Below, piece by piece: positions 3,192 through 21,924 of a DNA stretch of 21,924 nucleotides; the stretch's first letter is position 1; every line of letters starts with the position of its first letter. The translations under genes were made by a program, and so were the position numbers. The stretch covers positions 1-21,924 of the IMG/VR virus record IMGVR_UViG_3300025102_000333; one strand, 5' to 3'. The DNA is from a virus. The notes below the pieces were generated by a model, which saw nothing but the letters and a program-made list of their open reading frames with translations, ran no database searches and had not been told where the DNA came from.

Positions 3192-6100
3192 TTATCTTCT
3201 ACCTCGTTTTGGCTTTATCTTTTTACTTTTTCCTTTTTGGTCTACACTCAACTTACTTATACCCTTAGTAGTTGGTACTGCAACAGTTGCAGCGGTTTGT
3301 GTAACTATAAATGGTAAATCTCCATCAATGGTAGTTTCTGATGTATTTTTTACACCTTCGTAAAACATTCTTTTGAATGCAGTGTTATCTTGATATGATG
3401 TATCTAAATCTGTTTCATGTAAAGAACGTGAATTGTATAAATTTTCAAACGGATTAATACTATATCTAGAACTATTATTATAATTATCTTCACTATTATA
3501 AAAGAACTTATATTCTTTATTATTTTCAGATATTCTTTGATTTATTATCATAGCACCAGTTGCTTCTGAGTATATTGAATCGGGTCCTCCGTAAGTAACA
3601 CTACCACTTATGTATAAATTTCTATCATCAAAATTGTCATTTGTAGTAAAATTATATAAAGATGGTTTTCTAAATGTATCGGATGAATCTATATTACCTT
3701 CATAGTTTGGATACTCCGTTTCTATTTTTAATATTGAATGACTAGCTTCTTGGTAAACACCGTCCTCATCTGTATTAAAATGAAAATTTGTTAGATTTAT
3801 TTCAGAACTATAATCTATCTGTGTGAAAGATGGATGATCTCTTTGTATTGGATTTTTAGACCTTTCAAATATATTTGGTTCTATAATAGTACCAACTTGT
3901 GGTTTAGCTCTCATTGGTAAAATTTTTCTAAATTGTTTAAATATAGATTGGTCGTAGTATTTTATCAAATGCATATAATCCCAAAAATCATTATTACCAG
4001 TGTACTTTTTAAAATATTTATCAGCTGATTCTTTTAAATCTCTATATTGTAATTTAAAGTTATCACGAGGATCTCCTAATAAGTCATTAAAATCTAAGTT
4101 AGCAAACGAAGATATTATGTCATCATTTACGACATCTGTTGGTGAGAAATAAATACCGACTTTAGGAGAATCAATTGGTGAAAAATCATTTGAACTAACA
4201 TCAAATCTTTCTTTTACACTTAAACTAGCAGCCATCTTATCCAAGGGCCCGTCTGACGCATTACTTAAGGAATTATTTTCTATTCTTATTTTATCTGTAT
4301 TTCTTCTGTTAGGTCCGTAATTTGGTATAAAAGTTTTAGTTTGGTCAACAACTGACTCGAATGTATTCAAACCACCAAACCCAATTGCAAATCCTGGTGA
4401 TGTGGTAGTTTGATTGGAACTAACATCTCGTATTGTAGTACCATCTGATAATACACTATTATCATCAAAAGAATATCTAACTGCCAAACTTTCGTATGAT
4501 GATGATGGACTATTACCAACATATGATTTCGGGTCACTTACGTGATTGTTAAAAAATTGTTCTTTTAAGGGTTCATTCCACATTCTAAATTCCATCATTG
4601 AACCTGAAAGTTGAGCTCCAAAGTCATCTGAGGGTTTACCACCTATATATAAAATTCCACTGCCTGTCCAAGAAGCATTATACGAAGATGATGTAGAACC
4701 AGTTATATGTAGAACCGTATTTGAATCTTGTACAATTTTATCTATACCATCTGAATACTTCTTGACAAAAAGTTGATAATTAAAAGAATCACCGATACTA
4801 TCTGTATTAGTTGGTGCCTTTCTTAATGAGACATCATCCCAATATATAGTTGACTCAGGTTTCATGTTTTCAAATCTTATACCTAATTTAGATGTGTTTG
4901 GAAATCTAATTGTCTTAGTAACTGTAACATTTTTCCATTCACCCTCAACTAAACCAACAACATCTGATGATTTAATTCCTCCAAATGTATTTATAGAAGT
5001 TTGATTAGAGTTTACATCTTCACTCCAATTTACTACATTTTCGTTAGAGTCTAATTCAAATACTCTTAATCTTCCAATAGAATCTACCGTACTACCAGAT
5101 GCTTTTGCAAATGCACTAAATATGTAAGTTTCACCTGAACTTACTGATGCAACCGACGCAGGTTCTGAACCTGAACTAAATCCCAATGTATATGATAAAT
5201 TGTTTTCATCTAAATTTGAATTGTTTATGTGTTGTAATGCCTTAGTTCCAGTTCTTGATACATTAGAACCACTTACTATCTCAATCTCACCAGAAACTGC
5301 ATTCACAGAAGAACCAGTAATAAATGGTGGATTAAATAATTGAGTGGTTTCAAAAGATGGATGTGGAAATAATTCAGTTTCTACTTTTTCTTTTTTCAAC
5401 ATTACAGAATAATAATCACCATCATATATTGGCAGTAATGAAGAACTAATTACTGAAGAACCACCTGAACCAGATAGTGTAAATGAAACCGTACCTAAAT
5501 TATCTGAAGAACCATTATCTTTTAATCCTATAGCCCACTCTGTACCTTTTTGTACTAAAGTTTGATTTGAACCACTTGCAGCTCTAAATCTAAACTCTAT
5601 TGTTTCTGGTTTCCTACTAGTATTAGAATCATCACTCCAGCTTGCAGATATATGTTGAGCTCCTCTAAATCCTAATGCTCTTGTAAACCTTCTTTTTGTT
5701 TCAAAAGGTGCACGTTTAACATCTGCGTCCAATCCACCAAATTCTCTGACTTTTAAAATAGTTGATGGTACACCATAACAATTTAATATTGCTTTTAATG
5801 AACCAAGAGTACCCTTTGATTTTAATATAAAAGGCATACTTGCAATTAATCTTTTGGTTATTTCTTTAGAAACATCGGCTTCTGTTGGTGAGTCAAGTGA
5901 ACCAGAAGTGTAGAGTGAATATGAGGTTCCATTTAACTTTCTACCAAATCCATATCTACTCAAATCCAATAAATCTTTTCCATCTTGTGTAGTCCACCCT
6001 AGTGATTTTGCTAATGAAAAAACTAAATCTTTAGAAAACCCATCTTTTAAGTCTAATCTTCTATCTGTAATATCAGACATTGATTTTATATAAGCCCAAA

Positions 6101-7823
6101 GTTCATCGAATTGTTGACCTACCATATCCATAAAATCTAAGAATTGAACATTTTGAGAATCACTACGCACGTGGTCTGGTAATAAATTAACCAAACGATT
6201 ACCGTTTCCAGTATCATAAAAAGAAGCACTAAATAGTTGACCTGTTTTACTTGATACTGAACCATACCAATCTGTAAAATCAGCATGGGATGAACTTACA
6301 GGTTCAAAAGGATTTTCATAAGTACCACTTCCTGTTTTAGGCCATGATGCATTTGGAAATTCACCTATTGAACTTGTAACATAATTAGATTGTTCAAAAT
6401 ATAAATACTTTTCATAACCATCAAAATTATTTTTAATATCTCGTATTTTATTATGATGAATCTTAAGGTCGGCTTCTCCGTTTGTTACACCTACAAATGA
6501 ACTACTTAATACTGTCTGCTCTTCAATCTGTTGAACTTTGTATTTAAAATTTTCCAATCTTCTTTGTGCAGAAGAAAAGTTTACAAAATTTTCATAGTTA
6601 GAATAATCAATTGACAATTCAACTGATGATTCTTTTAAAAATTTATCTTCTATATCATCTTTTAATCTAGTATCTGTTGTAACTAAATCACTATATGTTT
6701 TAAATTCAGTTTGTCTTTTTGTTATAGGTGATTCACTTGGTAAATTATCTTTTGGTATTAGTACTCGAAAATCTTCATCTTCTTGTGCATATCCAACCAA
6801 CTCAACTGTTTCTGTTAATGGTGGTAATACTTCTCTAACAACATACGTCAAATCTTTTTCATTTATATCATCTGGTATAGGTTCATATGTTTTATATACT
6901 ACAGAGTATGGTAACGTAGGTACAGTTTTATTATCATATTTAACATTTGTTGTTAAAATTCTCTTATCATCACCAAAATGTAAATATGTATTTAAATCTC
7001 TCCTATCTCCAAACGTATTACTAATAGTCCAATTTGTATATTGACTAGTTGGTTCTATAGCAACTTCAGGTTGTAATCGTGTCTTTAAAGTACTAAAACT
7101 TGTATCTATATGTATAACATCATTATCTACGTCTCTTATGTTAGCAACAAATGGTTGGTATATAGGTGTAAATACAGGTTCTGGTATATTTGGAAAAAGA
7201 CTGAAAGAAAATTCATCTAATTCAGCATTTATATTATCAGTAAAATTGTCTGATGTAATAGCTCCTGTAAGTGTTTTAAGATATCCTTTTATATCAACTT
7301 GAATTATAGAATTTGGAGCTATCAACAAAGAATTATTAATGATACCTGCTTGTATAATTGCTGCTATATCGATTGGAAAAAAATCATCACTTTGATAGTT
7401 GGTTTCCTGTTGGCCTATTGTGCCCAGCTCAAATATGTCACCCATGCTCAACCCATCAGCCGCTATAAGATTTTTAAATGCAATAGGAACACGACTTACC
7501 AATTGTCCATTGATATAAAATCCTAAGTCTAAAACTTCCATTAATGATTGATCAATCTCCCCCTCTTTTTCCATTTTGGTTGTTACATATGTCGGTAACG
7601 GATTTTTTAATTTAATTGTAATAGTTTCGTCACCTCTAGCAATAAGAGGTGGATTATATGCTGAATCTTCATACCAACCTTCACCCAACACATATGCAAA
7701 TCGTTCACTATATTCGTTACTAGCAATCTGTGAGGTACTATCAAGTCCATCAGGTCGTTGTGAATCGTCTCCTCCTAAAAGTACATTAACTGGTGGTAAT
7801 TCTATGTAAGGTTTATTAGCCAT
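3192..7823 (-). CDS. Giant baseplate wedge protein, P2 gpI / T4 gp7-like, with nested lectin and CBM-like domains
   Basis: This 1543-aa protein is the largest in the window. Residues 1-540 are a beta-rich N-terminal region. Residues about 546-700 (NLLPDHVRSD, DMVGQQFDELWAYIKSMSD, then SMPFILKSKGTLGSLKAILN) follow the logic of the P2 gpI family, the counterpart of T4 gp7, which pairs with gp6/gpJ in the wedge. Residues about 735-810 and 1010-1120 look like two halves of a LamG/concanavalin-like jelly roll (TIEFRFRAAS; LYIGGKP; GSMMEFRMWNEPL). Between them, residues 815-1003 look like a CBM4_9-type module (PHPSFE, SGETYIFSAFAKASG, EGEWKNVTVT, IYWDDVSLRK). The C-terminus is strongly basic (KGKSKKIKPKRGRR). 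The start shares a base with the stop of the upstream gene (TAATG). It follows gp6 in the operon by three genes. The wedge role is inferred from family and context; the glycan-binding role is a guess from fold patterns. Confidence 0.75.
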   Translation of the reverse strand: MANKPYIELPPVNVLLGGDDSQRPDGLDSTSQIASNEYSERFAYVLGEGWYEDSAYNPPLIARGDETITIKLKNPLPTYVTTKMEKEGEIDQSLMEVLDLGFYINGQLVSRVPIAFKNLIAADGLSMGDIFELGTIGQQETNYQSDDFFPIDIAAIIQAGIINNSLLIAPNSIIQVDIKGYLKTLTGAITSDNFTDNINAELDEFSFSLFPNIPEPVFTPIYQPFVANIRDVDNDVIHIDTSFSTLKTRLQPEVAIEPTSQYTNWTISNTFGDRRDLNTYLHFGDDKRILTTNVKYDNKTVPTLPYSVVYKTYEPIPDDINEKDLTYVVREVLPPLTETVELVGYAQEDEDFRVLIPKDNLPSESPITKRQTEFKTYSDLVTTDTRLKDDIEDKFLKESSVELSIDYSNYENFVNFSSAQRRLENFKYKVQQIEEQTVLSSSFVGVTNGEADLKIHHNKIRDIKNNFDGYEKYLYFEQSNYVTSSIGEFPNASWPKTGSGTYENPFEPVSSSHADFTDWYGSVSSKTGQLFSASFYDTGNGNRLVNLLPDHVRSDSQNVQFLDFMDMVGQQFDELWAYIKSMSDITDRRLDLKDGFSKDLVFSLAKSLGWTTQDGKDLLDLSRYGFGRKLNGTSYSLYTSGSLDSPTEADVSKEITKRLIASMPFILKSKGTLGSLKAILNCYGVPSTILKVREFGGLDADVKRAPFETKRRFTRALGFRGAQHISASWSDDSNTSRKPETIEFRFRAASGSNQTLVQKGTEWAIGLKDNGSSDNLGTVSFTLSGSGGSSVISSSLLPIYDGDYYSVMLKKEKVETELFPHPSFETTQLFNPPFITGSSVNAVSGEIEIVSGSNVSRTGTKALQHINNSNLDENNLSYTLGFSSGSEPASVASVSSGETYIFSAFAKASGSTVDSIGRLRVFELDSNENVVNWSEDVNSNQTSINTFGGIKSSDVVGLVEGEWKNVTVTKTIRFPNTSKLGIRFENMKPESTIYWDDVSLRKAPTNTDSIGDSFNYQLFVKKYSDGIDKIVQDSNTVLHITGSTSSSYNASWTGSGILYIGGKPSDDFGAQLSGSMMEFRMWNEPLKEQFFNNHVSDPKSYVGNSPSSSYESLAVRYSFDDNSVLSDGTTIRDVSSNQTTTSPGFAIGFGGLNTFESVVDQTKTFIPNYGPNRRNTDKIRIENNSLSNASDGPLDKMAASLSVKERFDVSSNDFSPIDSPKVGIYFSPTDVVNDDIISSFANLDFNDLLGDPRDNFKLQYRDLKESADKYFKKYTGNNDFWDYMHLIKYYDQSIFKQFRKILPMRAKPQVGTIIEPNIFERSKNPIQRDHPSFTQIDYSSEINLTNFHFNTDEDGVYQEASHSILKIETEYPNYEGNIDSSDTFRKPSLYNFTTNDNFDDRNLYISGSVTYGGPDSIYSEATGAMIINQRISENNKEYKFFYNSEDNYNNSSRYSINPFENLYNSRSLHETDLDTSYQDNTAFKRMFYEGVKNTSETTIDGDLPFIVTQTAATVAVPTTKGISKLSVDQKGKSKKIKPKRGRR

Positions 7824-9253
7824 TAGTTGTGAGTCTCTATTATTGCAGGTAATGCAATTGTTGATGTTTGATTTGAAGTATTATCTTTAATTGTTAACTT
7901 TATACCTATACGTAATCCATTACCAAAAAGTTCTACTCTTAACTTAGAACCTTGTCTCTCATTGTCAGAACCAGTTTCTCCAGCTATAGTTTGAGATGCT
8001 TTAAATGAATTTTCAGGTGTTCGTGTTGCATACTCAGCACTTGGTGTTATTATTCTAAAACTTCCACCTGAAGTTGCACCTACATCTCTAGGTTGTATTC
8101 TATCATATGAATCTTTTTTGAATACACCACCATCATCTTTATCCCATCCAAATACTTCCCATGTGTATGTAGTAGCAGCGTCTGCTCTAAGTGTTGAATT
8201 ACTAGCAAAATCTAAAACAGGTTCAGGATCGTTTCGTTTTACCCATATTGGATCAAATGCACTATCTTTTAAATTTCGTATATCTTCAATTTTTCTACCA
8301 TCTCCTTGAAAATCAAAAGTGTCAAAATTTTGAATAGCCATTGGTATATCTTGATTATAATTTAGATTTTTAAATATATCATAGGCTGGAGAAAAGAAAA
8401 TATCTCCTGGAGCGTTCTTCAAATTATTATCTGTAAATCTCGTTCCATCCACTGCTTGGTCTAAATAAAAACTTGCTTCAAGGGCTTCAGTACCAGTTAG
8501 CTCAGATGGAGTTTTTCCTAATTCTTCTGGACTAATTGGAGTTGGTGGACTTTCGTAACCTACTATAAAAACATTTGGTATTATTATTTTTCCATTTTTC
8601 ATCGAGTCTTCAAATTGCGGATTGGTTTCTGAATTTGAAAATTTTATTGTTTTTGAGTTTCTTTTTTCTGAATTTGTATCACCTACAAATTCTATATTAC
8701 TCGAATCCATAGGTGATGCAACAACTTTTTTATTTGTTGCGGCTAGTCTGTAAAAATCTCTAATGTACTTTTCATTTTTTATTTTTTGTGGTACTAACCG
8801 TATTTCAGTTCTAGATGGTGATATCTCGTGAGATATATATTTATTTTCTTTTATAAATAAACTTTTATCTATTTGATTTATGTCAACATCTCCATTAAAT
8901 ATTTCATCATTTTCATCTGTAACCACAGTTTCGTATGAACCAGCTAATTTTCTTAAAAAGTTATATGTAACTTTAAACCTACCTCTATCATATCCTAGCT
9001 TTCTAAGAATAGTACCAGTTTTTAACTTAATACCCCCCTTTTCATCATCATAATAATAATCAGTTGAATCAGCAACTGAAGTTTCTAATAAATTATCATT
9101 GATGTCATATATTAAGACCTCAACATAATCTTCAGAATCATTGCCAAAGTATCCACCAAAGTATGCATTTTTGTATGATATACTACTATTATACTCAAAT
9201 TTTCTGTTAGAAAGTAATAATTCTTTATCAAATTCTTTTAACTTACTTGACAT
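7823..9253 (-). CDS. Predicted baseplate/tail structural protein, 476 aa
   Basis: I do not recognise a named family. The protein is soluble, mixed charge at the N-terminus (KLKEFDKELLLSNRKFEYNS) and beta-predicted thereafter, with no signal peptide, membrane helix or catalytic motif. Residues 30-110 have a compact beta pattern (DYVEVLIYDINDNLLETS, then FKVTYNFLRKLAG). The C-terminal 50 residues (LRVELFGNGLRIGIKLTIKD) read like an exposed beta-sandwich edge. It is joined by TAATG one-base overlaps to both neighbours, the 198-aa gene upstream and the 1543-aa wedge gene downstream, which suggests coupled, roughly matched synthesis of wedge components. It could be a counterpart of another T4 wedge protein such as gp8, but I cannot show that. 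Confidence 0.65.
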   Translation of the reverse strand: MSSKLKEFDKELLLSNRKFEYNSSISYKNAYFGGYFGNDSEDYVEVLIYDINDNLLETSVADSTDYYYDDEKGGIKLKTGTILRKLGYDRGRFKVTYNFLRKLAGSYETVVTDENDEIFNGDVDINQIDKSLFIKENKYISHEISPSRTEIRLVPQKIKNEKYIRDFYRLAATNKKVVASPMDSSNIEFVGDTNSEKRNSKTIKFSNSETNPQFEDSMKNGKIIIPNVFIVGYESPPTPISPEELGKTPSELTGTEALEASFYLDQAVDGTRFTDNNLKNAPGDIFFSPAYDIFKNLNYNQDIPMAIQNFDTFDFQGDGRKIEDIRNLKDSAFDPIWVKRNDPEPVLDFASNSTLRADAATTYTWEVFGWDKDDGGVFKKDSYDRIQPRDVGATSGGSFRIITPSAEYATRTPENSFKASQTIAGETGSDNERQGSKLRVELFGNGLRIGIKLTIKDNTSNQTSTIALPAIIETHN

Positions 9254-9849
9254 TAGTCTACTGGCTCCCCTTCTGGTATACTATCTATTATTTCTAAAGT
9301 TCTAGTTTTTACATCTTTCCATGTAGCACCGATTGCATAAAAGGATTGTAAATCAGGAAAAGGTCTTTTTTGATTTCCATCTATTAACCATTTTCTATTA
9401 TCTTCAGGATTGTCTGATGTCATAGTATCACCATTTTCCAATCCCTCTGGTAATGGATCTGCTATTTCTATTTGTAATATTTCCGAAAATTTTCTATCTA
9501 CTAAATTGTCTGAATTACTACTCTTTACACGTTCTTTTATAACATCAGTCTGTATAGAACAAGATTCTTTTTCAATCAAATCTTTAAAATCAGTATACTC
9601 AGTAATTCCTTCTATTTCTGCTCTATTCAATGCAGTATCTAATGTGGAGTAATCTGAGTTATCACGAAATATACCATTTTCAATACCCAAACCTGTAGTA
9701 ATATCTTCAAAAGAATATAAGACACCCTCTTCATTTCTAAATAAATTTTTAGCACGTAAAACTAAATCAGATAAATACTTACTTCTAAGTTTATCAATAA
9801 AGGAATTATAAAAACCTACATTGTCTAATTCTTTTTTTGTATAAGGCAT
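9253..9849 (-). CDS. Predicted baseplate-associated protein, 198 aa
   Basis: No family is recognised. The first 45 residues are predicted helical and basic (YTKKELDNVGFYNSFIDKLR, then SKYLSDLVLRAKNLFR), followed by an acidic, mostly helical body and a proline-rich C-terminus. There is no signal peptide, membrane segment or catalytic motif. The start codon overlaps the stop of the DNRLRE-like gene, and its own stop overlaps the next start, in both cases as TAATG. Its place between gp6 and the gp7-like gene suggests a small wedge or connector subunit. Confidence 0.6.
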   Translation of the reverse strand: MPYTKKELDNVGFYNSFIDKLRSKYLSDLVLRAKNLFRNEEGVLYSFEDITTGLGIENGIFRDNSDYSTLDTALNRAEIEGITEYTDFKDLIEKESCSIQTDVIKERVKSSNSDNLVDRKFSEILQIEIADPLPEGLENGDTMTSDNPEDNRKWLIDGNQKRPFPDLQSFYAIGATWKDVKTRTLEIIDSIPEGEPVD

Positions 9850-10949
9850 TACTGACTAACCTTGAACGTGAATCCTTCGTTAAAATATTGGTCAAGTTCA
9901 TCAACACCACTACCACTTCGGACTCTAAATTCTAAACGATAGTATCTTTCAGGTTGATAACCATTTAAATCCAACATAAAATAATTACCAGTAGAGTCAC
10001 AACTTAATTTTGAACCACTACCATAAGGAACAATTACTTCTTCAGTCTCTGCATCTAATATAGAATAAAAAGATGAACCACTAGGTAAATATTTTACTGA
10101 AAGATTAGCTGGTGTTGTAGAATATGAAGCTTCAGGAAATCTTTCTCTACCAACTAATCTAAATTTTACTCTAGAACTTTCTTTATACTCTGCCCGTAGT
10201 CCTTTCATATAAATCGTCATATCTTCTAAGTTTGTCATTGTTAATGGTGAAAGAGAACCACTATTCCAACTAGAATCATCCCAAACTGTTTCCAATGTTG
10301 GTGGATATTTAGTATGAGTATCTGATGAAAAGAACGATAAATCACCAAAAAGTTTTGTATTACCCTCGTCTGCATTAGAGTCTAAATTTCCAACACTACC
10401 ACTTCTTTTTACCATAAATCCATCGTTGGAAATAGAACCTGATAACCATTGATTCACTATATCAGTAACATTCATTCTAATGTCTACTGTTTTATGACTT
10501 ATAGAATGAGATGCTTCAAACCCACTTCCACTAAACCAAGTTCCACCACTTGCACTAACTGCACTACTCCAAAGAGTACCATCTGTCAATCCTTGTCTAA
10601 AGTTCCAACTACAACCTTCTTCTGTAATTGGATTGTCATAAGTATGTCCTTGTCCCATTGTCCATGATTGACTTATAGGATATGCATATATACTTTGTGA
10701 TATATCTAGGTTACTAGATTTTGCATCAAATAAATTTAAATAATATGATGGATTGGTTATTGTACCATCTACTATAGAAGATGATATTTCTGCTAAATCA
10801 AATTTAATAAGTATTCTAGAGACGTTTATTGCATCACCAGCATCACTAACTGTTTTTTGTATTTCTAATACTTCGTCTAACCCAGCATTTAAACTACCAC
10901 TTTTTTGGTAAATAGTTGTATCTTTTTCTGCAAATGTAAAATAATGCAT
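9849..10949 (-). CDS. Virion protein with DNRLRE/CBM96-like beta-sandwich domain, 366 aa
   Basis: The N-terminal 200 residues match the plan of DNRLRE/CBM96-type adhesion modules. They open with a strand ending in an extended small-residue segment (FAEKDTTIYQKSGSLNAGLD), continue with SRILIKFDLAEISSSI and SYYLNLFDA, then a Trp-containing SQSWTMGQG and a CSWNFRQG segment, and finish with VDIRMNVTDIVNQWLSGSIS followed by DGFMVKRSG. These modules are best known from extracellular bacterial and archaeal proteins. The C-terminal half is a second beta region (VKFRLVGRERFPEAS; RYYRLEFRVRSG). No signal peptide is present, as expected for a virion protein assembled in the cytoplasm. It follows gp6 after TAATAATG and overlaps the next gene by one base. 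A surface-exposed baseplate or fibre-anchoring role is inferred; the domain call is by pattern only. Confidence 0.65.
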   Translation of the reverse strand: MHYFTFAEKDTTIYQKSGSLNAGLDEVLEIQKTVSDAGDAINVSRILIKFDLAEISSSIVDGTITNPSYYLNLFDAKSSNLDISQSIYAYPISQSWTMGQGHTYDNPITEEGCSWNFRQGLTDGTLWSSAVSASGGTWFSGSGFEASHSISHKTVDIRMNVTDIVNQWLSGSISNDGFMVKRSGSVGNLDSNADEGNTKLFGDLSFFSSDTHTKYPPTLETVWDDSSWNSGSLSPLTMTNLEDMTIYMKGLRAEYKESSRVKFRLVGRERFPEASYSTTPANLSVKYLPSGSSFYSILDAETEEVIVPYGSGSKLSCDSTGNYFMLDLNGYQPERYYRLEFRVRSGSGVDELDQYFNEGFTFKVSQ

Positions 10950-10951
10950 TA

Positions 10952-12940
10952 TTACTCCCTAACTCCTAAATTATCACCCAATACTTTTCCTTTAATATCT
11001 GAGTTAGGAAACTTAACTTCAAATATACTTGGATCTAATGCTGGATACAAAATACCACCACGTAATGATGTGTTTATATCAAAGAAATTACCTGAGTAAC
11101 CTTGAGCTATTTGATATTTGTTTTCAACTACAACTGCTAAATTATTTGGATTATTTTCTGTTGGATTGACAACTGTTGCAACACCATCTACTAATGATAA
11201 TTCATAAACTAAATCAGCAAGAACTATTGGTTGACCTATCTGCCATCTATCAATATCAAAGAAATTTTGTACTGTACTAACACATCTTAGTAAAACTTCA
11301 TTTTTATTAAAACCAATTTTTGTTAATATTGCAAAGTTAACTGCTATGTTAATAATATATGCATCCTTAATATTAATAGCATCAGTAACTAATCTATATT
11401 GTGATAAATAAGTTTTTAAATTTTGTTTTGTTGTTTGTGTTAATGGTGCTAATTTTTTATTAGAGTTAAATCCAAGAGTATACATATTCATTGCTAATGG
11501 ATTTGGTATATTATTAACTTGTAAATCTTTTAAACTAGTTCCAACATCTGATTCGGTTATTTCTCTTTCTAATTTTTCAGCCATACCTATTTTACTTAAT
11601 TGTTCATCTTGAGACATGTGAACTTTTGAAACTGTTCCAAATTTAGCTGGTAAGGAGTAAGCTCTTACAATATAATCTTCTTTAGTAACTGCTCTTTGTT
11701 GTGCTTGAAAATACGCTAATGCATTTTCTCGTGTTTCTCTAACAGCTTCACCAGATGAACCACCAGCAGCTGGTTTAGGATTATTAAATGCAACGGAGTC
11801 TTTTGATTCTTGTACTAGTGAAGTAGAAAGACCATTATCATTGATGGTAAAATTTATTACTCCTAACTGATTGATATCACCCATACCTACATTATCATCT
11901 ACACCACCACCATGTGAATACTCTATGGTCAATGTTGTATTTGCTGGTGCCATACCAAATGTACTTGTCTTCAAAAAATTAGAAGGATCAAAAGCGGTAG
12001 TTAAAAAAGAGGGACTACCTGGTAAATTAGAACCTACGTTTGTTGGATTTGGTACAATTTCTTCATCAGGATTATCTGATATCCCAGCTCCAAATTTTAA
12101 AACAGTTTCATCATTTTCATTTATAAAAGTTGTAAATCTTCTAGATACTCTTTTAAGTTTTAGTATGTAAGCTACACTTTCTCTATCACCAATAGAAGAA
12201 GGATCGTTTGCTGAGTTATTTTCCATATTTTCAAAAATTGTATCTCTAGCTAAAGAATCAACTTCATACCATTTATTTCCATCACTATCTGTACAAGATA
12301 TAATTTCTATTACATCTGAATTTCCTAATTTTATTTGAGTATACTTTTCAGCTGAACCAAAATCAAAAAACTCTGTAGATATTTCACCACTTCTTGCTTT
12401 TACTTTTTTCTTCAATAAAAATTTTGTTGGTTCACCACTATCAGTTTCAAAGATATTAACTTCTCTAGTATCGTATGAACTAGAAAATTTAAAGTTTACA
12501 TCTTCTAAAGTTCTAAAAGTAGTTCCATTTGAACTTGCGTTTATTTGAGTTCCTTCGTCAATTGTCAAAGCATATCTAAAATCTGGTTTACCGTTAAGTG
12601 CTGGAACTGTTTGAAATGTATCAAGAACAACATCAGCTGGTGAAGTTGTCTTTGGTTTATATCCAAAAGATTGTGCAATATTGTATACATTACTTTTTTC
12701 TTCAGCATACGCTAGAAGTGTTTCTCTAAATTGTGAATCAATGTAGTAAGAAAGAACATCACCAACATAAGAAGCCATTTCAATAAACATCATACCAGGT
12801 GAAGCTTCGTTAAAATCATTGTAGGTATTTGGAAAGTATTGTTTAGCAAATTCTATAAGATTTGATTTAAAATCACTAAAGTCTTTATTTAAATAATTTA
12901 CAGATTTTACTGAATCCTTTTTTATACTTGTACGTGCCAT
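10952..12940 (-). CDS. gp6: Baseplate wedge protein, T4 gp6 / P2 gpJ-like
   Basis: The length (662 aa) is essentially that of T4 gp6 (660 aa). Residues 41-100 carry the typical N-terminal segment (NDFNEASPGMMFIEMASYVG, then DVLSYYIDSQFRETLLAYAEE and SFGYKP). Residues about 398-442 show the hallmark EAVRETRENALAYFQAQQRA, VTKEDYIVRA pattern of the Baseplate_J family, and the C-terminus has LRGGILYPALDPSIFEVKFP. gp6 dimers form the inner ring of the wedge and bind gp7-like and gp25 subunits. Here gp25 lies immediately upstream with a TAATG overlap, and a gp7-like gene lies three genes downstream, matching the usual wedge gene set. No truncation is apparent. Confidence 0.88.
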   Translation of the reverse strand: MARTSIKKDSVKSVNYLNKDFSDFKSNLIEFAKQYFPNTYNDFNEASPGMMFIEMASYVGDVLSYYIDSQFRETLLAYAEEKSNVYNIAQSFGYKPKTTSPADVVLDTFQTVPALNGKPDFRYALTIDEGTQINASSNGTTFRTLEDVNFKFSSSYDTREVNIFETDSGEPTKFLLKKKVKARSGEISTEFFDFGSAEKYTQIKLGNSDVIEIISCTDSDGNKWYEVDSLARDTIFENMENNSANDPSSIGDRESVAYILKLKRVSRRFTTFINENDETVLKFGAGISDNPDEEIVPNPTNVGSNLPGSPSFLTTAFDPSNFLKTSTFGMAPANTTLTIEYSHGGGVDDNVGMGDINQLGVINFTINDNGLSTSLVQESKDSVAFNNPKPAAGGSSGEAVRETRENALAYFQAQQRAVTKEDYIVRAYSLPAKFGTVSKVHMSQDEQLSKIGMAEKLEREITESDVGTSLKDLQVNNIPNPLAMNMYTLGFNSNKKLAPLTQTTKQNLKTYLSQYRLVTDAINIKDAYIINIAVNFAILTKIGFNKNEVLLRCVSTVQNFFDIDRWQIGQPIVLADLVYELSLVDGVATVVNPTENNPNNLAVVVENKYQIAQGYSGNFFDINTSLRGGILYPALDPSIFEVKFPNSDIKGKVLGDNLGVRE

Positions 12941-13410
12941 TAATATCCTCCTCCACCAGAACTTCCACCACTACTATCACTACCATCAATTTCTGTTCCC
13001 TCTTTGGCATCCAATGTCAAAGATTGATTTACCTCTGGATTTAATGTAGTAGAGTATTTTATAGTAACAATAACAGACTCAGCGTTATCTTCACTTTGCA
13101 AAGTGGCAATATCTATTATAGTAATATATGGTAAAAATCTATTTACTGCTTGTGTAATTGTTTCCGAAATTTTTTGTGGTAACTTATCATCTATTGGTTC
13201 AAAACACACTTCTCTAAGTCTAGATCCAAACAGTTCATTTCTAGGCCTTTCACCAGGATATGTTAACAATAAATTTCTAAGATTGTGTCTAGATTGTTCT
13301 AATGAATTTTTAGTCATAGCAAAACTATTGTTGTTGTCTGCTCTTAATGGAAAAGACAACCCAACATATGTTTTAGGATCTAAATCTATTTCTCTAGCAC
13401 TTCTTGGCAT
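12940..13410 (-). CDS. gp25: Baseplate wedge protein, gp25/gpW family
   Basis: Residues 15-130 follow the GPW_gp25 family. They include an N-terminal YVGLSFPLRADNNNSFAMT, a conserved helix SLEQSRHNLRNLLLTYPGER, then RNELFGSRLREVCFEPID (the FEP motif), ITQAVNRFLPYI and a strand pair with VIVTIKYST. Subunits of this family seed the tail sheath at the baseplate wedge. The usual length is 110-140 aa; the excess here is a low-complexity Ser/Gly tail (residues 140-156, DGSDSSGGSSGGGGY). The start shares a base with the stop of the 151-aa gene and the stop shares a base with the gp6 start. The old 'lysozyme' label for this family is not supported, and I see no lysozyme motif. Confidence 0.9.
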   Translation of the reverse strand: MPRSAREIDLDPKTYVGLSFPLRADNNNSFAMTKNSLEQSRHNLRNLLLTYPGERPRNELFGSRLREVCFEPIDDKLPQKISETITQAVNRFLPYITIIDIATLQSEDNAESVIVTIKYSTTLNPEVNQSLTLDAKEGTEIDGSDSSGGSSGGGGY

Positions 13411-15749: not shown

Positions 15750-16505
15750 TTAAAATATTGAACCTGTATTTGCTGTATCTATTTTACCACCTTCTTGAAA
15801 CTCTTCCATCATATTAAAGTAATAATTCTTCATTTGATTTATTACCCTAGTTATATGTTGAGTATTAGAACCAGTCATTTCACGAATCATAATATACAAA
15901 GCTTTCTTATTAAAGTTTTCTATATTTCTTCTTCTACGAAATAATTCTAAAACAGAATCTGCAACTAGTATATCTTTTTGTCTTCTAAAAATATTTGTTA
16001 TATTGTTATCCCAATATTCTAACATTTGTTCGACAAATTCTATATTAAAATCATTTACATCACCATCAGCAGATTCTTTTGTTACATTTCTATTATAATC
16101 CAAAACGGTTATTTGGTCATGAATTTTCATTTTTTTATAATTGTTATTGTTATGAAGTATTAACCAATTTTTACCAACAACAGAGAAGTATGAAAACGCT
16201 CTACCCTTTTCAACATTATACTTTGGCATTTGCATTACTAAGAAAGCAACTACTTCATGTTTAACTTCTTCAATAGGATAATCAAAATAGTAAAATTTAA
16301 AAGTATGAATTAAATTTTCAGCTAATTTATTAAAAGCAAATGCTATATGTTCTTTATAAATTTTATTTTTTATAACTGGACTATCATGATTATTATATCT
16401 AATAATTGCATTCTGTACTGGTGTTCCAAAATAGATTTTACTCTTCTTTTTTCTTTTTCTTTTAAATTTTGGTTTTGGTTTATTTGACTTACTTGTCATT
16501 AACAT
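15750..16505 (-). CDS. gp55: T4 gp55-like sigma factor for late transcription
   Basis: The protein is 251 aa (T4 gp55 is 185 aa). Residues 5-23 are an unusually basic, Lys/Pro-rich extension (KPKPKFKRKRKKKSK). Residues 50-120 resemble the sigma region 2 segment of phage late sigma factors (YPIEEVKHEVVAFLVMQMPK, then KGRAFSYFSVVGKNWLI). Residues 200-232 look like a small helix-turn-helix (ALYIMIREMTGSNTQHITRV). gp55 directs host RNA polymerase to TATAAATA-type promoters. The start at 16505 has a GAGGGGGG ribosome site very close; the ATG six bases further in (16499) has better spacing, so the first two residues are uncertain. The gene overlaps the 86-aa gene by 17 bases and ends the modification operon. 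A structural role is excluded by the motif pattern. Confidence 0.78.
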   Translation of the reverse strand: MLMTSKSNKPKPKFKRKRKKKSKIYFGTPVQNAIIRYNNHDSPVIKNKIYKEHIAFAFNKLAENLIHTFKFYYFDYPIEEVKHEVVAFLVMQMPKYNVEKGRAFSYFSVVGKNWLILHNNNNYKKMKIHDQITVLDYNRNVTKESADGDVNDFNIEFVEQMLEYWDNNITNIFRRQKDILVADSVLELFRRRRNIENFNKKALYIMIREMTGSNTQHITRVINQMKNYYFNMMEEFQEGGKIDTANTGSIF

Positions 16506-17534: not shown

Positions 17535-18719
17535 TTAAAAAAATGTATGTTCTTTTACTTTGATTTCGTTTTTTAAATTACTCATTTTTTGAAAAAGTTG
17601 TTTATACTTTTCAAAAACATTTATTGGTTTGTCACTCTTTACCATTTCGTCTAAAGCTTTTAAAAGTTTAAACATATCTCTCGAAACAACTTGTTCTAAT
17701 ATATGGTCATGACTGTGTACATAGTATTCTGCTTTGTCAATAGCCTCCTTGAATATCATTAAGTTATGTAATCTTATTGCAGTAGTACAAGTACTTTTCC
17801 ATTCTATAGTGTCTTCCCAAATAAGAGATTCTTTCAAGTATTCTTTATCAAACTCTGTAGAAACTGGTAGATAAGAAAATGGTTGTTCTTTAAAAGAATC
17901 ATCATGTTTAGGAACATTTATAGATTGAAAGGAAGCTTTCTTAAAATTATAATCTAGATAGTAACCACCAAAAACAACTGCTCTATCTGGTGATGAACTA
18001 TCTGTTGTTACAATTACTTTAGAGTCTACTTCGTTTAAAGATTTTTGTAATTGGTTTAACATTAAGAAATCAGATACTTTGGAAATACCTAAAATATGAA
18101 ACCATTTGTTACTTTCATTTAGATGTTCTTTACCATTTAATAAAGATAAAACACCTGACATGAAAGCATATACGTTTCGTCCACCACCACCGACAGCCCA
18201 TCCTTGAAATGGATATTGTTTTACTTCATCGTACCAACTCATATATTCTAATTCGTTAGTACCTTGAACTACATTTAAGAAGTCTGTATTACCACTTTGA
18301 TTATCTGCAAAGTATTTAAAATTATCTTTACTAATTTTTAAACACTCTTCGTATTTACCCTCATATTTCATCTTTGGTGGTATATCTAAATTCATTGCAA
18401 TATCTGAATTATTTTCTAACCAAACAAAAACTTTCTCTACAAGAGACTTATCCCATTTCAAAGCACCTGATGCAATTTGGAATCCACCAGAATCACCCAT
18501 AATTAAATTATCTTTCGTAAATCCAAATTCATCATAGAAGTTAGGATGGTTCTTAAAAAAGTGACCTGCAGATATTAAGAACTCGGTATGTCTATATCTT
18601 TCAGGAAAGTCTTTTGAATAAAATCTAGATGTTAATCCATTTCTTAAAATAACATTTTTTCTTAAAGCTTGACCGAATCCAGCTACTGAAAACGATGGAA
18701 AATATTTGAACTTACTCAT
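17535..18719 (-). CDS. dpdA: DpdA-like DNA-guanine transglycosylase
   Basis: This 394-aa protein has the tRNA-guanine transglycosylase (TGT) core: D76 in MGDSGGFQI (proton-handling Asp), D112 in LDIPPK, Q152 in VVQGTN, the glycine loop GWAVGGGGR (173-181) and D240 in VTTDSSSPDR at the place of the nucleophilic Asp. The usual TGT zinc cluster CXCXXC plus His is not present: only C311 and H318 remain near the expected place (STCTTAIRLHNL). That divergence, and co-location with a full preQ0 pathway, point to the DpdA branch, which exchanges guanine in DNA for a 7-deazaguanine, and not to a tRNA enzyme. The start overlaps the phosphoribosyltransferase stop as ATGA. The expected product is DNA carrying preQ0, or a derivative if other enzymes lie outside the window. 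Confidence 0.85.
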   Translation of the reverse strand: MSKFKYFPSFSVAGFGQALRKNVILRNGLTSRFYSKDFPERYRHTEFLISAGHFFKNHPNFYDEFGFTKDNLIMGDSGGFQIASGALKWDKSLVEKVFVWLENNSDIAMNLDIPPKMKYEGKYEECLKISKDNFKYFADNQSGNTDFLNVVQGTNELEYMSWYDEVKQYPFQGWAVGGGGRNVYAFMSGVLSLLNGKEHLNESNKWFHILGISKVSDFLMLNQLQKSLNEVDSKVIVTTDSSSPDRAVVFGGYYLDYNFKKASFQSINVPKHDDSFKEQPFSYLPVSTEFDKEYLKESLIWEDTIEWKSTCTTAIRLHNLMIFKEAIDKAEYYVHSHDHILEQVVSRDMFKLLKALDEMVKSDKPINVFEKYKQLFQKMSNLKNEIKVKEHTFF

Positions 18720-19114
18720 ACTAAATAATCCTGTATTTCTTTACTATCTTGAGATTCCCAAGGATAAACAATCCATTTATTACCCTTTTCACTTATCCAA
18801 TAATCAGGTATAACGATAGATTGTTTATGGTAATCTAATGTTGCAAATGTAGCGTTGTTACATACTTCTAATTTTTTATATCGTTCTAAAGTAACACCTG
18901 TGTCTGCAATATCATCTACAATTAAAAACTTTTTACCATACATATCTCTGAGGTCTGTAATTAATGGTATACCCAACTTATGACTTACCAACACTGCAAC
19001 TATTAGTCCACCTCTAGGTACACCATACACAGCTTCAAAAGATTCGTGTTTTAATCTCTGACATAAATCAAGTACTCTACCTTCGATGTCTTCCCAATTA
19101 TAAAATGTTTTCAT
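18716..19114 (-). CDS. Purine-type phosphoribosyltransferase, 132 aa
   Basis: Residues 31-36 (GVPRGG) and 64-76 (LIVDDIADTGVTL) are the PRPP-binding signatures of type I phosphoribosyltransferases, and the C-terminal PDYW ... KWIVYPWE (103-120) fits xanthine/guanine/hypoxanthine-type members. The reaction would join PRPP and a purine base to give the nucleotide, in the cytoplasm. At 132 aa it is shorter than typical Gpt (about 150 aa) but all motifs are present. The start shares a base with the folE stop (TAATG) and its stop overlaps the dpdA start (ATGA), so it is tightly coupled to both. The base specificity (guanine, xanthine or a deazapurine) is not readable from sequence. Confidence 0.82.
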   Translation of the reverse strand: MKTFYNWEDIEGRVLDLCQRLKHESFEAVYGVPRGGLIVAVLVSHKLGIPLITDLRDMYGKKFLIVDDIADTGVTLERYKKLEVCNNATFATLDYHKQSIVIPDYWISEKGNKWIVYPWESQDSKEIQDYLV

Positions 19115-19743
19115 TATTTTAAATCCCTTATAAAATTATAAAATTCTTCACGTACTCTAGCTTTATTTTTAAATACATTACTTAGTTTAGCAGTCTTCAT
19201 AGTAGCATCATGTTTAACACCACGAACACAAGCACACATGTGATTAGCTTCTATCATAGTTGCAACACCAATATTATCTGTACACTCTTCATCAATGTGG
19301 TCATGAATTTGCATTGTTAAGTTTTCTTGTACTTGAGGTCTACGAGCATAAAACTCAACGATACGATTTAATTTACTTAAACCAATAACCTTACCATCTG
19401 GTGTAGGAATATATGCAACGTGAGCTTTACCAATAAAAGGTAAGTGGTGATGTGAACAAAATGAATGTACTGTTATGTTACCTTGAAAAACTACACCATC
19501 ATAACCATCGATGTTATCAAATGCTGTTATCTTTGGTGACTTACTATATACACCACTAGCCAAATCATTGACAAAAGCTTTTGCAACTCTAATCGGTGTA
19601 TCTGAAGAATTAGGATCTTCTCTCCAATCAAATCCAAGAGCTGTCATATAATTACCATAATGAACAGCAGCTTCTTCAATCATTTTTAGTTTTTCTTGTT
19701 CTGTTAATGGATGATTTCCATTTGCATGTTTTAATTTAGTCAT
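19114..19743 (-). CDS. folE: GTP cyclohydrolase I, first step of preQ0 synthesis
   Basis: This 209-aa protein has every hallmark of type I FolE: the zinc ligands C96 and H99 in [12 protein letters not shown] and C170 in [12 protein letters not shown], the [20 protein letters not shown] block (121-140) and the C-terminal FIRDLK end. It converts GTP to dihydroneopterin triphosphate, the substrate of QueD. The residue after the zinc Cys (C172 in MCACVRGV) differs from the usual Thr but is not catalytic. The start follows directly on the queC stop (TAAATG), and the stop overlaps the phosphoribosyltransferase start. In a phage, with QueD/E/C present, the role is 7-deazaguanine and not folate synthesis. 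Confidence 0.95.
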
Positions 19744-20457
19744 TTACACTTCCTCATATTTTGTAACGTCTTCTAATCCAGCTTTCTCAAAAGCCAATAT
19801 TCTATCTGTACATGCTCCACATTTACCACAGCCATCACCTGTGTAACATGATATAGAATTTTCAAAAATATATTTAAAATCTAAACTTAACTCATCACAT
19901 ATATTTTTTGCATCTTTAATTATTTCACATTTCTTTTTATTTACATACGGTAAATAATAATTTATATTTTCTGTATTTACATTTCCTATCTTAAATGCAT
20001 CTTCTAGCTTATCATAAAATTCTGGTGTACAATCAGGTGGAATAATATTACCATCTCCAGCATGTACTCCTAAACATACATCAACCTTTGTATCAGAATC
20101 TTTAGCAATAGAAACTGCAAACCCATAAAGAACTGAAGAGAATATTGCATTTCTATTTGGAACAAAATTCATTTTCATTTTTGATTCATCTGTAGTACCA
20201 GTAGGTACATCGATATCAGAACTTGTTAATGACGAATTGAATGTCCCAAATACTGAAGATAAATCTACTCGTTGATTTCTAATTGGTAAATCTTTATATT
20301 CAAGATAATGTAGGATACGAGCTAGACCATCTAACTCAACTTTATTTTTTTGACCATAGTAATAACTTATGGTGTGTATATCGTAACCTTTTTTTATAAG
20401 ATGTAATAACAATGCAGTGGAATCTAGTCCACCACTTAAACTTAATATTGCTTTCAC
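19744..20457 (-). CDS. queC: 7-cyano-7-deazaguanine (preQ0) synthase
   Basis: This 237-aa protein has the PP-loop ATPase motif SGGLDST (8-14), the internal FVPNRN (98-103) and VHAGD (131-135) segments and the C-terminal zinc site C204, C210, C213, C216 (SCYTGDGCGKCGACTDR). It converts 7-carboxy-7-deazaguanine to preQ0 with ATP and ammonia. No N-terminal glutamine-amidotransferase fusion (Gat-QueC, found in phages making dG+) is present, so the expected product is preQ0 itself. The start is GTG, overlapping the TGA stop of the membrane protein gene as GTGA, with GGAG further upstream. Length and motifs are normal. Confidence 0.95.
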   Translation of the reverse strand: MKAILSLSGGLDSTALLLHLIKKGYDIHTISYYYGQKNKVELDGLARILHYLEYKDLPIRNQRVDLSSVFGTFNSSLTSSDIDVPTGTTDESKMKMNFVPNRNAIFSSVLYGFAVSIAKDSDTKVDVCLGVHAGDGNIIPPDCTPEFYDKLEDAFKIGNVNTENINYYLPYVNKKKCEIIKDAKNICDELSLDFKYIFENSISCYTGDGCGKCGACTDRILAFEKAGLEDVTKYEEV

Positions 20458-20687
20458 TTATCTAACTTTCTCCAATTTAAATAACCATAAACATTTAAAA
20501 CCATAAGAACTACTGCTAACATTACTTGAGGATTTGCTTTAATGTTAATTGAATATATTAACATAAATAAATTACCTAAAAACCAAACCACCCAAGACAT
20601 CTCAAGTTTCTTTGCATTTAAATAATACCCAAATAGTATAGAAGCTGTTCCTAACCATCCTAAAATTTCTATTATATTATACTCCAC
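20454..20687 (-). CDS. Three-helix membrane protein (SemiSWEET/PnuC-like), possible precursor transporter
   Basis: The protein has three hydrophobic helices at about 5-23 (IIEILGWLGTASILFGYYL), 30-48 (MSWVVWFLGNLFMLIYSIN) and 53-72 (PQVMLAVVLMVLNVYGYLNW). The GWLGT opening and the WFLGN and NVYGYLNW elements resemble three-helix bundles such as SemiSWEET/PQ-loop proteins and PnuC halves, which work as oligomers to move small solutes. The start is chosen as GTG at 20687 (77 aa) because GGAG lies 6 bases before it; an upstream in-frame TTG at 20699 would add four residues but has no ribosome site. It overlaps the queE end by 11 bases and the queC start by 4, so it is embedded in the preQ0 pathway. 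A role in importing queuine, preQ or another precursor is inference only. Confidence 0.7.
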   Translation of the reverse strand: MEYNIIEILGWLGTASILFGYYLNAKKLEMSWVVWFLGNLFMLIYSINIKANPQVMLAVVLMVLNVYGYLNWRKLDK

Positions 20688-21426
20688 GTTTATCTCCAAA
20701 AGCTATAATATGTAATCTGTCGGTATAGTTGTAACCTTCATCTTCACATATTTTCATTAACCAAACTCTTCTTTCATTTAGTTGTTCAGATACTAAACCT
20801 TCTGGCATTAACCAAACCATATTATTTGGAATGTCTAATATCTTTTGCAACTCTTTAACTTCTTGTAAATCTTTTTCATTTGATATAACTGGTTTTAACT
20901 GATAGTCTTCATGGTTGTCAATCAGTTGTCTCATAGCATCGTAGTTACATCTCCACTTCTCGTGTTGTTGTCTATCTTTTTCTGTAACCTCACGATTAGC
21001 ATAGGTCATCCAAGTACCTGGTCTTGGTGTAGAGTTGGATAACTTTGGTGATAGTGAAATACAATCAGCTTCTGTTTGAACAAACTCACTACCTTCAGTT
21101 TCTATTGTTATTGTGTGGTCATACCTTTTACCGATAACACATAACTCTTTTAATAACTTTCCATGAATTGTAGGACCTCCACCTGTAACCATTGTATGTT
21201 TGATTTGTGGATTTGATTCATATACCTTTACAACATCATTTAATGTGAATATACCTTTTTCAGGTTTCCAAGAAGCATAAGGTGTATCACAAAATGAATC
21301 TGAAAATTGACATCTCAATCTACAACCGGTAACTCTGATAAGAATATGTGGAACACCCATGTACTTACCTTCACCTTGAAGACAAGTATAGGTTTCTCCT
21401 AATGGTTGTTTTTTAGTGTAATTCAT
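20677..21426 (-). CDS. queE: 7-carboxy-7-deazaguanine synthase, atypical radical SAM enzyme
   Basis: This radical SAM enzyme turns 6-carboxytetrahydropterin into 7-carboxy-7-deazaguanine. From the ATG it is 249 aa. It has GETYTCLQGEG then GVPHILIRVTGC, the usual QueE lead-in, and the cluster motif C35, C39, C46 (GCRLRCQFSDSFCDTPYASW) with six residues between the second and third Cys where the canonical CX3CX2C has two. TMVTGGGPTIHG (77-88 region) and ETEGSE follow the family, as does the C-terminal LMPEG. The start is chosen as ATG at 21426 because a strong promoter puts the mRNA start there; an in-frame TTG at 21441 would add five residues but lies inside the promoter. No ribosome site precedes either, which fits a leaderless message. 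Confidence 0.85.
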   Translation of the reverse strand: MNYTKKQPLGETYTCLQGEGKYMGVPHILIRVTGCRLRCQFSDSFCDTPYASWKPEKGIFTLNDVVKVYESNPQIKHTMVTGGGPTIHGKLLKELCVIGKRYDHTITIETEGSEFVQTEADCISLSPKLSNSTPRPGTWMTYANREVTEKDRQQHEKWRCNYDAMRQLIDNHEDYQLKPVISNEKDLQEVKELQKILDIPNNMVWLMPEGLVSEQLNERRVWLMKICEDEGYNYTDRLHIIAFGDKRGV

Positions 21427-21432
21427 TGGTTT

Positions 21433-21461
21433 AATATACAACTTTTTTTAATCAATGTCAA
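21433..21461 (-). promoter_or_regulatory. Strong sigma-70-type promoter upstream of queE
   Basis: On the minus strand a perfect -35 TTGACA (21461-21456) and a -10 TATATT (21438-21433) are separated by exactly 17 bases. The -35 is 6 of 6 and the -10 is 5 of 6. It lies in the 45-bp gap after queD, the only noncoding stretch in this operon. The predicted first base, seven bases past the -10, is about 21426, which is the A of the queE ATG, so the transcript from here would have no leader. Confidence 0.65.
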
Positions 21462-21471
21462 GTACTTTTTT

Positions 21472-21912
21472 TTATTTAATATGATATTCTGCCATATTGT
21501 CTTCGTGTTCCCAACATTGAACTTTAGATACAGATGCTCTTCCATCTGTTTCTCTTTGTACAACGTCTTGTAAATACTTTGCAACTAACTCAGCAAACTT
21601 TTCACATCCAACACCATTCTCTAATATTCGTAAATCTATAACTCCACGATTATGCATTTCTTTGAACATCTCAAGTTCAGGATCGTCAGCAGCAACACAA
21701 GTGGTATGGTCAAACATATTCTTTAACCATTCTTTGACTCCGTTACGTTTAAAACATCCAAAGTCAATTACCCAACCATTATCATCTAGTTCACCTTCGA
21801 ACCAAACTTTAAAACAGAATGCATATCCATGAATTAATTTACAATGTGAATCAGCTCTCCATTGTCTGAAAGCTGTACTATAACCTATAAAGCGTTTATA
21901 ACTTTTATACAC
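21472..21912 (-). CDS. queD: 6-carboxytetrahydropterin synthase-like protein, noncanonical zinc site
   Basis: This 146-aa QueD/PTPS-family protein would convert dihydroneopterin triphosphate to 6-carboxytetrahydropterin. It has the family plan: YSTAFRQWRA (11-20), the catalytic Cys C24 in SHCKLIHGY, GWVIDF (46-51), FDHT (67-70), the VGCEKFAELV helix (101-110) and CWEHEDNMAEY (133-143). Two of the three usual zinc His residues are missing: the AAHR His is F15, and the second His of HGH is Y30; only H28 remains, with H23 nearby as a possible substitute. I recall the STAFRQWRA/HGY form from other marine phage proteins, so this may be a real subfamily. The start is GTG with GAGAGG about 5 bases upstream; the promoter would be off the right edge. 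Confidence 0.85.
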   Translation of the reverse strand: MYKSYKRFIGYSTAFRQWRADSHCKLIHGYAFCFKVWFEGELDDNGWVIDFGCFKRNGVKEWLKNMFDHTTCVAADDPELEMFKEMHNRGVIDLRILENGVGCEKFAELVAKYLQDVVQRETDGRASVSKVQCWEHEDNMAEYHIK

Positions 21913-21924
21913 TATAACCTCTCT

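Follow-up and report, generated by a model that had tools for sequence, protein, structure and literature searches.

How does a protein of a probable phage baseplate come to carry one jelly roll inside another, and what might the inner one do there? The question arises from a 1543-aa protein of a marine phage, encoded on the minus strand at positions 3192-7823 of the window (the whole stretch of DNA analysed, 21,924 nucleotides of IMG/VR record IMGVR_UViG_3300025102_000333) and placed in a baseplate operon from its open reading frame and neighbouring genes. A preliminary description had proposed that at 4800-5640, corresponding to residues ~728-1008, a CBM4_9-like jelly roll interrupts a LamG-like domain of a baseplate wedge protein. 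No Pfam model matches the whole protein at E ≤ 10, and this domain assignment therefore needed both relatives and structure.

The AlphaFold2 model of residues 691-1182, built from an alignment of 84 sequences (model residue n is protein residue n+690), has a pLDDT of 86.0 and a pTM of 0.82. Solved LamG/ConA-like domains align by VIA-align to model residues 22-474, that is, to both halves of the outer fold, with Z 19.1 for 6lvb (208 residues), 19.0 for 4dqa and 18.9 for PAPP-A (8d8o), and about 14-15 for laminin LG4-5 and neurexin. CBM folds align mostly to model residues 120-318, equivalent to protein residues 810-1008, and include CBM22 (4xup_C, Z 15.2), CBM61 (2xom, 14.8), CBM4-2 (2y6j, 14.6) and CBM16 (2zey, 14.2); the same insert superposes on domains of the phage tailspikes Klebsiella K2-2 TSP (8iqe, Z 14.8) and CBA120 TSP4 (5w6h, Z 14.5), and its best Foldseek match is 4xup_E (E 2.1e-7). 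The model thus confirms a two-sheet domain of LamG/ConA-like fold, which spans residues ~712-814 and ~1010-1165 (Z ~19 across the two halves) and is interrupted by a predicted beta-sandwich jelly roll of the CBM4/16/22 type (~815-1009, superposable on solved CBMs at Z 14-15). All on the minus strand, the first LamG half (residues 712-814) occupies 5382-5690, as delimited by AlphaFold2, VIA-align and LamG profiles in uninterrupted relatives; the nested jelly roll (residues 815-1009) occupies 4797-5381, as delimited by AlphaFold2, Foldseek, VIA-align, NF048003 and CBM_4_9 and by its lack in LamG-only relatives; and the second LamG half (residues 1010-1165) occupies 4329-4796, from AlphaFold2 and VIA-align. 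The break and resumption placed earlier at ~812 and ~1010 are at most a few residues from the boundaries found here (~814/815 and ~1010), and the lectin-like fold is present as described but begins near residue 712, about 20 residues before the start suggested at ~735.

Two separate fold families therefore occupy two ranges of one model, and a single continuous or unrelated fold was not seen in the predicted structure. In a BFVD fold search the best query TM-score among the 50 matches listed was 0.41, so no listed match superposes on the entire nest as one body, although this rigid-body score may overlook a hinged relative. The fold alone does not imply sugar binding, as stig cyclases such as HpiC1 match the insert equally well (VIA-align Z 14.3-14.6).

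The fold assignment of the insert is firm, whereas its profile scores fall short of formal family membership. Against CBM_4_9 (PF02018) the window insert scores 14.1 bits (E 0.062; gathering cut-off 25.9), and nine of 29 members' inserts match this model at E ≤ 10 (best E 0.004); the CBM4_9-like label proposed earlier is thus borne out by fold and only weakly by profile. The GTA_spike_fiber model (NF048003) gives 25.0 bits for the window insert (E 2.3e-5; curated cut-off 36) and matches 24/29 members' inserts at E ≤ 1 (best E 4.5e-6). Pfam LamG profiles do not match the window protein at E ≤ 10, but among uninterrupted LamG relatives, at E ≤ 1, they do so in some cases (Laminin_G_3 in 8/32, best 1.5e-6; Laminin_G_2 in 7/32).

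Relatives of the protein supply an independent view of the same architecture. An IMG/VR search with the window protein gave 42 loci, and further searches were seeded with Microcystis phage Mel-JY01, Flavobacterium phage immuto, a huge-phage homologue and a mixed alignment; the combined set comprises 167 loci including the window's own, with one search contributing 80 of 580 confirmed candidates and many loci from the seeded searches sitting on contigs already in the set. The insert and both LamG halves are present in all 29 distinct near-full-length sequences (window included) of the first alignment. Mel-JY01 has the LamG region and lacks the insert, as does the huge phage LR756508, while immuto has neither LamG nor insert, with only about 25 residues separating the core anchors.

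Both anchor motifs are present in 130 of the 167 loci, and the states were counted on these; the 37 loci with one or both motifs missing (truncated or variant), nine of which contain the insert, were excluded. Neither domain is found in 11 anchored loci, where the inter-anchor stretch is 32 aa, a class in which LamG-less loci without the regex anchors (e.g. L153, L155, L157-L161, L163) are left out or undercounted. LamG alone is found in 60 loci (305-328 aa), LamG with the CBM-type insert in 53 (481-506 aa) and other lengths in six (371-395 aa). Collapsed to 107 distinct sequences, the anchored loci comprise 49 with LamG and CBM (window included), 48 with LamG, five with neither and five others. 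The insert profile detects 53/53 long-spacer loci and none of the 77 loci in the other classes, the 60 LamG-length loci included; profiles of the two LamG halves, partly built from the same sequences on which they were run, detect both halves in 53/53 LamG+CBM loci, 60/60 LamG-length loci and 0/11 of the shortest class. In the LamG-only rows inspected, the insertion point is a turn of roughly 10-25 residues that the insert replaces. Predicted structure, fold comparison and relatives that lack the insert or both domains therefore agree on a jelly roll nested within a second jelly roll, as the preliminary description had proposed.

The nest has a further level. The conserved core of the protein consists of an N-terminal piece (residues 275-711, 5691-7001, minus strand), delimited from alignments and weak TIGR02242 and Tail_P2_I matches, and a C-terminal piece (residues 1170-1325, 3849-4316, minus strand), delimited from alignments, sequences and anchor spacing, which is kept in LamG-bearing relatives and has counterparts, by eye, in LamG-less ones. 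Because LamG-less relatives keep the core pieces that flank LamG about 25 residues apart, the arrangement is a three-level nest, with the CBM-type insert in LamG and LamG between two conserved core pieces.

The insert is closely tied to this setting. Among the at least 80 loci of a scan seeded with the insert (80 of 87), both LamG halves surround it in 79/80; the 80th (L247) has the N half and lacks the C half, in a short locus that stops at the contig end. Across open reading frames of at least 250 aa from the 167 loci, all 62 insert hits above 60 bits fall in this family's protein, and those below 60 bits are one truncated copy and chance matches within the same proteins. By tblastn up to E 10, the phages collection contained no match to the insert, and a profile search (P0001) of genome contigs for other occurrences confirmed 0/60 candidates and thus provides no host link. 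One relative (L105, 7795-8103) carries an unrelated segment of ~100 aa at the same LamG turn, with no Pfam match at E ≤ 1. It is a tentative and rather doubtful idea that this turn is a general socket, such that contractile phages would insert various modules into one particular hairpin of a lectin-like baseplate platform; if so, the baseplate would have exchangeable adhesins of its own, apart from the fibres. Separately, L139 and L140 have longer loops elsewhere in LamG.

We built a core tree with the LamG domain and insert left out, using 104 distinct sequences of 124 usable rows and a quick method with SH-aLRT support only. The 45 LamG+CBM rows of the 104 form a single clade set off by a branch with SH-aLRT 100, and the seven rows with neither domain fall on one side of another branch. 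The simplest reading of the order of gain is none, then LamG, then LamG plus CBM, which is not proof since the tree is midpoint-rooted and long branches meet at its base. We infer accordingly only in outline that a LamG domain was gained between the two conserved core pieces and that later, once in the lineage, a CBM-type jelly roll would have been gained in a beta-turn of that LamG domain.

Whether the receiving protein is a wedge protein bears directly on what the nest might do. Upstream of the 1543-aa gene, PHROGs comparisons identify a gp25-like gene (12940-13410) and a gp6-like gene (10952-12940), neighbours that point to a contractile-tail baseplate. A comparable gene order surrounds the relative in Flavobacterium phage immuto, in which the annotation names the products of two nearby upstream genes a baseplate assembly protein and a baseplate wedge protein. 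The core itself gives fainter signals: in the window, Tail_P2_I (PF09684) matches at 5757-5876 with 12.2 bits against a cut-off of 20.6, and TIGR02242 at 5766-5897 with 12.6 bits against 51.85. Among 45 related records, sub-cut-off matches occur in 18 for Tail_P2_I and 13 for TIGR02242 (two of the latter, L145 and L046, being the same phage), leaving 27 and 32 without a match. These scores are 11-15 bits, except for one 5-bit second match in L105, and every match lies in this protein's reading frame and either stops short of the GG anchor that precedes LamG or overlaps it. Of 15 records taken from L100-L144, with LamG alone or with another insert, none matches Tail_P2_I and one (L105) matches TIGR02242; Tail_P2_I was also not found in the LamG-less clade, and some control genomes match these models at the same loose threshold.

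Broader comparisons of the core returned little. Against 18 proteins, six each from T4, HTVC008M and A511, profile and HH comparisons gave nothing credible (HH probabilities all <1%; best hmmsearch E 0.032, to the compared part of VrlC), and no relation to T4 gp6-gp11 was found. Searches of PDB sequences with A1, A2, A3 and A6 yielded nothing beyond chance hits, PHROGs searches with 10 family members reached a best E of 0.029 with no function, Pfam searches with 14 LamG-less members gave nothing credible, and an AlphaFold2 model of a LamG-less relative (L145 residues 1-752, 14 rows) was of low confidence (pLDDT 44.5, pTM 0.39). The proteins gpI and gp7 are equivalent, and on gene order and these sub-threshold matches the core is likely, if unproven, of the gpI/gp7 type. 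The earlier designation as a wedge protein agrees with gene order (gp25-like, gp6-like, and further on this protein), but no above-threshold relative of the core was found.

The operon around the gene has features of its own. The 476-aa protein encoded directly upstream (7823-9253, minus strand) matches the N-terminal part of longer proteins of ~1400-2290 aa in six of 14 relatives compared (L100, L105, L109, L123, L140 and L144; blastp E 4e-12 to 3e-28), and the match is weaker or absent in the other eight. The gene appears to have been split in the window lineage, with the putative downstream half bearing a new hypervariable N-terminus. The product of the gene that follows the gp6-like gene, a 366-aa protein (9849-10949, minus strand), has a weak match to the Disaggregatase related repeat (PF06848; 21.3 bits versus 33.9).

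Parts of this operon differ widely in how they evolve. In tblastn at E ≤ 1e-3 over the clade, the core, LamG halves and insert are each recovered in 51/51 loci, the insert with a median identity of 57%, whereas the hypervariable N-terminus (residues 1-200; 7224-7823, minus strand) is recovered in 5/51 and matches no Pfam model at E ≤ 1; identity across the clade is down to ~35% in the upstream proteins of 476 and 198 aa. Selection was assessed on 43 of the 49 distinct sequences and 54 close pairs, for which pN/pS is 0.19 in the insert, 0.17-0.18 in the LamG halves and 0.13-0.17 in the core; the corresponding mean pairwise identities are 61%, 68-72% and 69-74%. Near-invariant residues of the insert include F824 (41/43), W933 (42/43), W963 (43/43) and D996 (43/43). 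The insert is under purifying selection and fixed in the clade, and its low pN/pS and presence in all 51 loci indicate that it is maintained and behaves differently from the operon's most variable, host-range-like region. Host-range variation is more plausibly sought in residues 1-200 than in the CBM.

Known systems offer two close parallels. In the Bacillus herellevirus Vp4, the baseplate wedge 3 protein Gp119 carries two CBMs and decorates B. cereus cells, while the CBM-less homologue Gp177 of Deep-Blue does not, and the A511 homologue Gp105 is also without CBM (PMC11406892). The two cases share a CBM-type module (CBM16-type in Gp119) in a myophage wedge or probable wedge protein that is missing from homologues; they differ in that the available parts of that report describe cell binding for Gp119 and no CBM inside a LamG domain, and we found no sequence relation between the window core and six A511 baseplate-region proteins. 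Evolved Dits of siphophages carry CBMs in loops of their galectin domain and through these bind, with lower affinity, the hosts that the RBP also recognises (PMC7291167). What is shared is a jelly roll of carbohydrate-binding type seated in a loop of another, peripheral jelly roll with a lectin-like fold, here one turn of a LamG domain that is presumably peripheral. Unlike in evolved Dits, the gene order here is of the gp25/gp6 contractile type, the outer domain is LamG/ConA-like rather than galectin, the LamG domain is itself an insertion, and the nest is known from sequence and predicted structure.

More distant likenesses concern the modules. The insert resembles the GTA head spike fibre domain through the weak, sub-cut-off NF048003 match (24/29) and shares its fold with the CBM-type domains of K2-2 TSP and CBA120 TSP4, but those domains are on head spikes (by family name) or tailspikes, whereas this one is nested in LamG. 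Pelagimyophages and cyanomyophages are likewise marine contractile phages with lectin-like domains in structural-operon proteins, and pelagimyophage structural operons reportedly include unidentified proteins with concanavalin A domains (PMC7029224); the window core, however, shows no relation to the six HTVC008M baseplate-region proteins compared, including the compared part of VrlC. Among literature titles and the beginnings of abstracts we found no baseplate protein with a CBM in LamG, and literature searches on baseplate wedge and laminin G in phage, and on the GTA head spike, found no paper.

What, then, might the inner jelly roll do? We think it somewhat more probable than all alternatives together that the protein belongs to the periphery of a contractile-tail baseplate, probably in the gpI/gp7-type wedge position, and that the nested CBM is a constitutive accessory adhesin. 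The insert's two termini meet in one surface turn, which would leave the outer fold intact and allow the module to project outward; it may then hold the landing baseplate, weakly and multivalently, to host-surface or environmental polysaccharide, with specific fibres or variable domains deciding the host. Baseplate position, outward projection, exposure of the module and glycan binding are all points that we infer. Glycan binding by the predicted CBM-type insert is plausible because the Vp4 wedge Gp119 with its CBMs binds cells and evolved Dits carry CBMs in galectin loops. Against an adhesin stand the insert's Pfam and NCBIfam matches, which are below curated cut-offs, the non-glycan roles that jelly rolls of the same fold also serve, and the lack of confirmed wedge homology for the core. 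A purely structural role, in which the nested jelly rolls bind no glycan but widen the wedge or provide docking for fibres or neighbouring subunits, is a possibility we regard as serious if distinctly less probable. The insert is strongly conserved at a single position and changes almost as slowly as the core and LamG, and its fold does not show its function, being found in enzymes that do not bind glycans. Yet a comparable operon lacking the insert occurs in relatives with LamG alone and in those with neither domain, so the insert is dispensable for building a baseplate as such, and among solved structures it matches carbohydrate-binding modules and phage tailspike domains best.

That the nested CBM is instead the main receptor-binding domain for host range seems improbable. 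It is a carbohydrate-binding fold on a baseplate protein and evolves slightly faster than its surroundings (61% versus 68-74%), but its fixation at a median of 57% identity in 51/51 loci and its pN/pS of 0.19 argue against a rapidly changing host-range determinant, while variability is concentrated in residues 1-200 and in the upstream 476-aa and 198-aa proteins. Fixation in the clade and purifying selection thus make a conserved accessory adhesin the likelier of these two roles. That the nest is an artefact of assembly or annotation, or a misreading of one continuous fold, is scarcely credible: we found no point in its favour, the same architecture recurs in 53/130 anchored loci (49 distinct sequences, window included), and the two fold families lie on separate ranges of one confident model.

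Baseplate proteins with an added CBM, including one placed in a loop of a lectin-like domain, are already known; what sets this case apart is the combination of a probable contractile-tail wedge, LamG as the fold that receives the module, the three-level nesting and a natural series of relatives. That graded series (no lectin, LamG, LamG plus CBM), within one baseplate protein of mostly uncultivated phages, suggests how phages may add sticky parts, here a predicted module of sugar-binding type, to the baseplate on which they land, and it would extend the evolved-Dit principle to a probable contractile-tail wedge. Matched homologues with and without the module lend themselves to asking whether surface polysaccharide is gripped by baseplates as well as by fibres.

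Elsewhere in the window, a run of minus-strand genes at 17535-21924 resembles, by eye, what we take to be a 7-deazaguanine/queuosine-type set (tgt-like, phosphoribosyltransferase, FolE-, QueC-, QueE- and QueD-like), which suggests DNA or tRNA base modification. The protein encoded at 15750-16505 (minus strand) is presumably, from its appearance by eye, similar to a late sigma factor of the T4 type (gp55-like).
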